Shown here: one piece after another, positions 46,744-48,959 of the stretch | Position numbering within the stretch: position 1 is the first letter of the stretch | Layout of the letters: each line of letters opens with the position of its first letter | Assembly (NCBI RefSeq): GCF_000430785.1 | Contig: NZ_AUMR01000044.1 | Location: forward strand, 1-58,892 | Reading direction: 5' to 3' | Length of the DNA stretch: 58,892 bases | Source: Ectobacillus panaciterrae DSM 19096 | GTDB lineage: Bacteria; Bacillota; Bacilli; Bacillales; Bacillaceae_G | Position numbers and translations under genes: made by a program | Notes under the pieces: generated by a model | Seen by the model: the letters and a program-made list of their open reading frames with translations, nothing else | Databases searched by the model: none | What the model was told of the DNA's origin: nothing

Positions 46744-47139
<396 letters not shown>

Positions 47140-47227
47140 TTTTTCTGTATAGATTTTCTAACATTGTCTATAATGGGATATGATACATTCATTTTGAAAA
47201 TTTCTTACAGAAACATCGCTTGTTGTT

Positions 47228-47999
47228 GTGCACAATCGGGAACTGCCTAAGGGGGACTTTCGGTTAGACAATACAGCATTGTCTAGCCGGGGTTTCGCCG
47301 CTGTAACATCAATCCAAATCGATGGCGTACTGCACGAGTTTTCTACAATCGAGGGCGTTGTGGAAGATGTCACAACGATTATCTTAAACATAAAGAAACT
47401 TGCTCTTAAGATTTACTCTGATGAAGAGAAAACGCTTGAGATTGATGTACAGGGCGAAGGTGTTGTCACAGCTGCTGATATTACTCACGATAGCGATGTC
47501 GAAATCTTAAATCCGGATTTACACATTGCAACGTTAGCAAAGGATGCGCATTTGCGTATGCGTTTAACTGCAAAGCGTGGTCGTGGGTATACGCCAGCTG
47601 ATGCAAACAAGAGAGAGGATCAACCAATAGGCGTTATTCCTATTGATTCCATTTTCACTCCAGTGTCACGCGTAACATACCAAGTGGAGAATACGCGTGT
47701 AGGGCAAGTAACGAACTTTGATAAACTGACGCTTGATGTATGGACGGATGGAAGCATCGGGCCGAAGGAAGCAATTTCGTTAGGCGCTAAAATTTTAACT
47801 GAGCATTTAAACATCTTTGTTGGTCTGACTAACGAAGCACAAAATGCTGAGATTATGGTAGAAAAAGAAGAAGATCAAAAAGAAAAAGTTCTTGAAATGA
47901 CAAGATATGATGAAAGTTCGTAACTTAGGACGTAAATCCTTAGAGGAAGTAAAGCATAAGCTTGAAGAGCTTGGCTTAGGCTTACGCAAGGACGACTAA
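47228..47999 (+). pseudogene. rpoA: rpoA, RNA polymerase alpha subunit, disrupted at both ends
   Basis: Alpha assembles the polymerase core and contacts UP elements and activators. Normal Bacillus alpha is ~314 residues. Here homology begins only at [20 protein letters not shown] (from 47297), about residue 51; the start codon and ~50 codons are missing, replaced by a short sequence with an 11-bp hairpin (47262-47288). The body continues to KEKVLEMT, after which ~31 codons of the C-terminal domain are missing and the frame shifts, ending RYDESS-stop at 47923. The true C-terminus ([19 protein letters not shown] ... LGLRKDD-stop) survives in another frame at 47904-47999. The longest open frame, GTG 47228-47923, encodes 231 residues and should not be functional. 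Because the gene is essential, an assembly error or an intact copy elsewhere is likely. Confidence 0.88.
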
Positions 48000-48043: not shown

Positions 48044-48406
48044 ATGGCATACAGAAAATTAGGCCGTACAAGTGCACAACGTAAAGCTATGTTACGTGAC
48101 TTGACTACTGACTTAATCATCAACGAGCGCATCGAAACGACTGAAACTCGTGCGAAAGAGCTTCGTTCCGTAGTAGAAAAAATGATTACTCTAGGTAAAC
48201 GTGGAGATCTTCATGCTCGCCGTCAAGCAGCTTCTTACGTTCGTAACGAAGTAGCAAACGCTGAGACGAAGGAAGATGCATTGCAAAAATTATTTGCAGA
48301 TATCGCTCCTCGCTACACAGACCGTCAAGGTGGATACACTCGTATCGCTAAGATTGGTCCTCGTCGCGGTGACGGTGCTCCAATGGTTATCATTGAATTA
48401 GTGTAA
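48044..48406 (+). CDS. rplQ: 50S ribosomal protein L17
   Basis: A 120-residue tunnel-exit protein. It begins [20 protein letters not shown] and ends with the conserved [19 protein letters not shown] 48044 follows GAAGGAGGGAACTACGA. Last gene of the ribosomal protein cluster. Confidence 0.98.
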
Positions 48407-48413
48407 TGACAGC

Positions 48414-48462
48414 AAAAGGGCAGGACAGTGCTTTTTAAGTAACTGGTCGTGGCCCTTTTTTT
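48414..48462 (+). terminator. terminator after rplQ
   Basis: AAAAGGGC / GCCCTTTT base plus an inner GGACAGT/ACTGGTC stem with one mismatch, followed by a T run. Ends the S10-spc-alpha transcript. Confidence 0.8.
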
Positions 48463-48465
48463 GTA

Positions 48466-48590
48466 TGTCTAGCTCCACCGGCTAGCTCCCGTCTGAAAAA
48501 TAACCTTCCCCATATAAAGCCAAAAAGCGGCTTTAATGGTGAAGAACATTTTCCAGAGGGAGCTGAACGAGCCGGTTGCGCTTTTCTTGA
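48466..48590. repeat. structured intergenic repeat, copy 1
   Basis: A 125-bp unit beginning TGTCTAGCTCCACCGGCTAG and ending GCCGGTTGCGCTTTTCTTGA. It folds as a long interrupted hairpin: CCGGCT/AGCCGG, GCTCCC/GGGAGC, and apical AAAGCC/GGCTTT. First of four tandem units between rplQ and ecfA1; no ORF or transposase. Confidence 0.85.
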
Positions 48591-48713
48591 TGTCTAGCTC
48601 CACCGGCTAACTCCTCCTGTCAAATAACCTTCCCCTAAAAAGGCAAAAAGCGCCTTTGTGTGTGAAGAACATTTGCCATCCGGAGTTGAACGAGCCGGTT
48701 GCGCTTTTCTTGA
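48591..48713. repeat. structured intergenic repeat, copy 2
   Basis: A 123-bp unit, identical base for base to copy 3. Stems: CCGGCT/AGCCGG, AACTCC/GGAGTT, apical AAAGGC/GCCTTT. Compared with copy 1 the second and third stems differ at both sides, keeping pairing. Confidence 0.9.
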
Positions 48714-48836
48714 TGTCTAGCTCCACCGGCTAACTCCTCCTGTCAAATAACCTTCCCCTAAAAAGGCAAAAAGCGCCTTTGTGTGTGAAGAACATTTGCC
48801 ATCCGGAGTTGAACGAGCCGGTTGCGCTTTTCTTGA
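48714..48836. repeat. structured intergenic repeat, copy 3
   Basis: A 123-bp unit identical to copy 2, so the duplication is recent or kept homogeneous. The 3' end GCGCTTTTCTT resembles a terminator tail. Confidence 0.9.
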
Positions 48837-48959
48837 TGTCTAGCTCCATCGGCTAGGTGCTGCCACCAGAGGTTCTCTGCCGCACAAAGGCAAAAAGCGC
48901 CTTTGAGGGCGGAGAACCTCTGGTTCTGCACCTAAACGAGCCGATTGCGCTTTTCTTAA
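48837..48959. repeat. structured intergenic repeat, copy 4 (divergent)
   Basis: Same frame of conserved ends but stems are ATCGGCT/AGCCGAT, GGTGC/GCACC, a 12-bp perfect CCAGAGGTTCTC/GAGAACCTCTGG and apical AAAGGC/GCCTTT. Every stem differing from copies 1-3 keeps pairing. Lies 62 bp before ecfA1. Confidence 0.88.

Follow-up and report, generated by a model that had tools for sequence, protein, structure and literature searches.

The DNA analysed here (the window) is a stretch of 58,892 nt, positions 1 to 58,892 of contig NZ_AUMR01000044.1 of Ectobacillus panaciterrae DSM 19096. As read directly and from alignment to relatives, the interval between rpsK and rplQ holds only the remains of rpoA (Table 1). 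For comparison, we used a genome of the same genus (G003), which is a single contig and carries an intact rpoA of 314 codons. Relative to G003, the final 25 nt of the rpoA leader, including the Shine-Dalgarno sequence, are missing from the window together with the start of the gene. The ORF that holds the longer remnant scores 256.9 bits with TIGR02027, which is over the cut-off. In the alignments, the first junction has 1 nt and the second 2 nt in common with both sides. The ORF is listed at 47228-47923 with a GTG start. This GTG is no gene start because it falls within the leader that relatives also carry.

The first-pass annotation had described a gene without its first ~50 codons and without ~31 codons of the C-terminal domain, with a frameshift and between intact flanking genes. 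This description proved accurate, and the alignment to rpoA of relatives, which it had suggested, confirmed the losses of 175 nt and 92 nt.

Table 1 Features of the rpoA interval in the window and their basis
Feature	Position	Strand	Basis
rpsK (ribosomal protein S11), intact	46750..47139	+	ORF; NCBIfam PRK05309.1 and uS11_bact over cut-off; 99% identical to G003
5' leader of rpoA, conserved in relatives	47140..47297	+	Alignments; exact match to G003 stops at 47297
First junction, 175 nt absent vs G003 (25 nt of leader, start codon and codons 1-50)	47297..47298	+	Alignment
rpoA remnant, codons 51-252, strong constraint	47297..47902	+	202 codons, PF01000 E 5.3e-42
Second junction, 92 nt absent vs G003 (codons 253-282), frameshift	47902..47903	+	Alignment
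rpoA remnant, codon 283 to stop, end of C-terminal domain	47902..47999	+	tblastn 283-314; PF03118 positions 44-67
rplQ (ribosomal protein L17), intact	48044..48406	+	ORF; NCBIfam TIGR00059 over cut-off; 97.5% identical to G003

The rpoA leader (window 47230-47297; positions 1180-1350 of locus L004) is conserved across Bacillaceae. In G003, it contains a hairpin and folds better than shuffled sequences (z -2.16; 5 of 200 shuffles were as good). It may be a regulatory leader. Rfam gave no match up to E 1 at the leader (window 47100-47350). The frame just 5' of the first junction reads LVVVHN, which recalls an intein end. An intein at this junction was dropped as a candidate, as the leader DNA is untranslated in relatives and the frame is interrupted by a stop only a few codons further 5'.

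To place the lesion in its surroundings, the ORFs of G003 with 60 aa or more, across the matching 59.9 kb, were compared with the window. In this comparison, rpoA is the sole recognisable gene from which internal stretches are lost. A few other G003 ORFs align over 0.87-0.98 of their length and are short at one end, and several short ones, mostly antisense, have a poor match or none in the window. infA is intact. Downstream of rplQ and before the next gene, a 123-nt unit is repeated in tandem about four times (window 48457-48957); it has at least 83 matching pieces genome-wide (40 of 166 candidates scored).

What is left of rpoA is strongly conserved at the protein level. Codons 51-252 differ from G003 by 1 amino acid in 202 codons (dN 0.0064, dS 0.371), and the 31 codons 3' of the second junction show no amino-acid difference, so that both remnants together carry 1 change in 233 codons. 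The relaxed constraint expected of a pseudogene was not found in the remnant by comparison with G003, and a very recent break would look alike. A gene long out of use would not show such full constraint, which speaks against a decayed pseudogene. An rpoA pseudogene accompanied by a functional second copy would likewise leave a fragment in the original position, flanked by rpsK and rplQ, but here no second copy was found, and the full constraint also sets the remnant apart from such a case. A shortened alpha that still works had been called implausible in the first-pass annotation, which we judge to be right.

The search for a second rpoA covered the full source assembly (G000; 5.41 Mb, 189 contigs, completeness 100, contamination 4.03). 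None was found in the assembled sequence with two Pfam families, the RpoA protein or the missing 5' DNA as queries. RNA_pol_A_bac gave a single match in G000, which is that of the window, and the RpoA protein query matched just the two window fragments. The family of the C-terminal domain matched the window remnant over the cut-off; its two other matches were weak and fell short of the cut-off. With the missing 5' DNA from G003, the matches were the flank and short chance matches. The same held beyond this strain: among the other genomes with low rpoA scores described below, searches of 14 at E 0.01 gave no second copy and at most weak matches, and G005 likewise showed none.

Across the order, 16 of 299 Bacillales genomes stood out by low rpoA values, as read from the best E-value and the match count in the complete per-genome table (G000, G005, G049, G080, G082, G089, G126, G128, G130, G153, G160, G174, G193, G197, G263 and G280). 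This count is a lower bound, since G142, which has the coordinates of the genome of the damaged locus L036, was no outlier. In 12 of the 16, the damage takes a form of missing coverage. Ten of these are contig ends inside rpoA, called where the match stops 0-5 nt from the end of the fetched stretch. The other two are N runs, one of 10 N in G126 (coordinates of the genome of L058) and one of 902 N in G089, at a place where G003 has ~926 nt. The latter is as for a scaffold gap spanning a gene of normal length. The remaining four (G000, G005, G082 and G128) are joined deletions without N. G049 has an additional 1-nt frameshift in rpoA. The break points group at codons ~26-50, ~94-108 and ~230-290. 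In the window, the two lesions belong to the first and third of these clusters, and the joined 5' losses in G128 and G005 are much like its own.

SecY (432 aa), which is encoded in the same gene cluster, was taken as a control. It matched in 298 of 299 genomes with 0 low outliers, a count which small SecY losses would escape. The lone genome without a SecY match (G227) is 62% complete. The difference between rpoA (16/299) and secY (0/299) is significant (Fisher p 1.2e-5). In a sample of the phylum with 3 of its 249 genomes from Bacillales, 243 matched TIGR02027. Six had no match and one (G467) had a very weak match; of these seven, G482 alone reaches a completeness of 90% or more. Damage is concentrated in rpoA and in Bacillales and is rare outside the order. 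G482 itself is a 1.2-Mb genome rated 100% complete, for which the phylum search gave no TIGR02027 match.

Among 80 named loci, five were damaged in rpoA. Anoxybacillus tepidamans (type strain DSM 16325; L033) has two stops in the gene. In A. mongoliensis (L036) and in Aeribacillus composti (type strain KCTC 33824; L058), a run of 10 N falls within the first cluster; the protein check did not flag L036, which was detected by its N run. In Cytobacillus oceanisediminis (L040) and Bacillus pakistanensis (L098), a contig ends inside rpoA. In B. pakistanensis (L141; G043 contig C10), the contig ends in ~76 nt of foreign, AT-rich sequence after rpoA codon 244. Among other records, a 128,740-bp "plasmid" of Bacillus subtilis NA05 (L002, NZ_AP028965.1) holds infA-rpmJ-rpsM-rpsK-rpoA-rplQ. 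The ribosomal gene cluster, rpoA included, also stands in further plasmid-filed records, such as NZ_CP030101.1 and several of Clostridioides difficile; one of these records has 2.9 Mb, and some look like chromosomes or chromosome pieces.

The titles of 11 named loci carry what we take to be JGI-style labels. With labels recognised in this way, rpoA is damaged in 5 of 11 labelled loci vs 0 of 69 other named loci (p 1.9e-5). When four possible JGI records, all with intact rpoA (L086, L102, L103 and L108), are added, the proportions become 5/15 vs 0/65. Of the other labelled loci, L083 has 10 N outside rpoA, and L057 has an intact rpoA that differs by one base in the key stretch. L098 carries two odd bases at columns without variation among the unlabelled relatives (69 of 69), and one stop-making change in L033 lies at a column of this kind. 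For an essential gene, such bases are compatible with a consensus drawn from aberrant reads at places that normal reads fail to cover. Some N runs could be stretches masked by operators.

The first and the third break stretch differ in how widely their DNA is shared. Over the 3.3-kb region, the most widely shared 25-mers lie just before the rpoA start codon, at codons 5 and 36 and at the infA start. First-cluster 25-mers are present in up to 25-29 of the 80 loci. The median number of loci sharing 25-mers is 40 for the first cluster, 11 for the third, 14 for rpsK and 22 for infA. The first break stretch is exceptionally conserved DNA, and the third does not surpass rpsK or infA in sharing. Counts of shared 25-mers over the 5' and C-terminal stretches did not set the JGI group apart; this grouping comprised the 15 possible JGI loci, and the later label tests used the 11 explicit labels. 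The 21-mer with which the most conserved part opens occurs in 18 of 69 other loci vs 0 of 11 labelled ones, and further 21-mers from there occur in L057, in some cases together with L110; both observations are descriptive, as the 21-mers were chosen after seeing the alignments.

From these sequence comparisons, the rpoA lesion is very probably an artefact of genome assembly, and the cell would have an intact rpoA at the same place. This reading is favoured because rpoA is hit in other Bacillales drafts at similar spots and the neighbouring secY is spared. The damage takes forms that missing reads would give, namely contig ends, N gaps, joined deletions and a consensus from aberrant reads. The lack of a second copy in G000, the full constraint on the remnant and the JGI-style labels of all five damaged named loci also count in its favour. 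The first-pass annotation had left three options, namely an assembly error, an intact rpoA at another place or an unexpected way for the cell to make alpha. Its first option is strongly favoured by the order-wide damage to rpoA with secY spared; as to its second, no other rpoA was found in the assembly. In draft genomes, read loss and misassembly, for example through contaminant screening, likewise produce contig ends, N gaps, false joins and an error-bearing consensus at particular stretches. We know of no description of rpoA-specific loss in Bacillales, and the literature listings covered here gave no report of it.

An article on a yeast project describes a JGI data step in which reads aligning to common microbial contaminants are set aside (PMC6256683). 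By a contaminant or reference screen of this kind, most likely, rpoA reads would have been removed or gone missing before assembly. The two gaps in G000 would then have been closed by rare surviving reads that bear deletions or by false joins made by the assembler. Such bridging of clean joins is assumed here as the most economical reading. The joins in G000, G005, G082 and G128 speak against an artefact, as they are clean and without N, a form which a plain read gap alone does not give. Given an artefact, we put a read screen as its cause at about an even chance. Against it stand the labelled yet intact rpoA of L057, the unremarkable third cluster and the failure of the JGI group to stand apart in the 25-mer count. 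The infA start is also widely shared, yet infA is intact in the window.

An artefact could also arise without a read screen, from stretches that are hard to amplify or sequence or from contigs edited after assembly. This variant falls a little short of an even chance. The fold of the G003 leader could hinder sequencing near the 5' break, and contig ends and N gaps are compatible with any local loss of coverage. The hairpin, however, does not explain the breaks at codons ~94-108 and 230-290, and many drafts with a similar leader have an intact rpoA. Editing after assembly, in turn, does not explain the bases at otherwise invariant columns.

It is very unlikely that the break is real and that alpha is made from a second rpoA which the assembly lacks or whose sequence has diverged beyond detection. 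We regard a real break as equally improbable when alpha encoded in separate pieces is admitted next to a diverged or unassembled second gene. The clean joins of the window with their 1 and 2 shared nt are such as real deletions can show, and a recent break would leave a remnant as constrained as this one. Against this, family, protein and DNA searches gave no second copy in an assembly rated 100% complete, and a real break would need many repeats in the order, in rpoA alone.

The grouping of break points at three stretches across genera would suit a mobile element (insertion sequence, intron or integrative element) that targets conserved rpoA sites and leaves the breaks as insertion sites or scars, but we give this hardly any credence, as the ten contig-end cases carry neither element ends, inserted sequence nor foreign tails at the break points (the lone tail being that of L141), and N gaps and changes at invariant columns are no insertion scars. 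A site-specific element at rpoA was dropped for these reasons.

With an assembly artefact as the favoured reading, the biological interest that the first-pass annotation had seen in the broken gene is not supported. The finding may matter for data quality, with damaged rpoA in 16 of 299 Bacillales genomes; as biology, it most likely does not. rpoA is used in phylogeny and in completeness checks. Because the damage falls on rpoA and not on secY, trees, lists of essential genes and pseudogene scans can go astray when built on assemblies of this kind. A single shared cause could be traced and eliminated. If the break were real, its recurrence would mean a repeated attack on, or a relocation of, an essential polymerase gene. 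Most likely, however, the broken rpoA is no feature of the organism.
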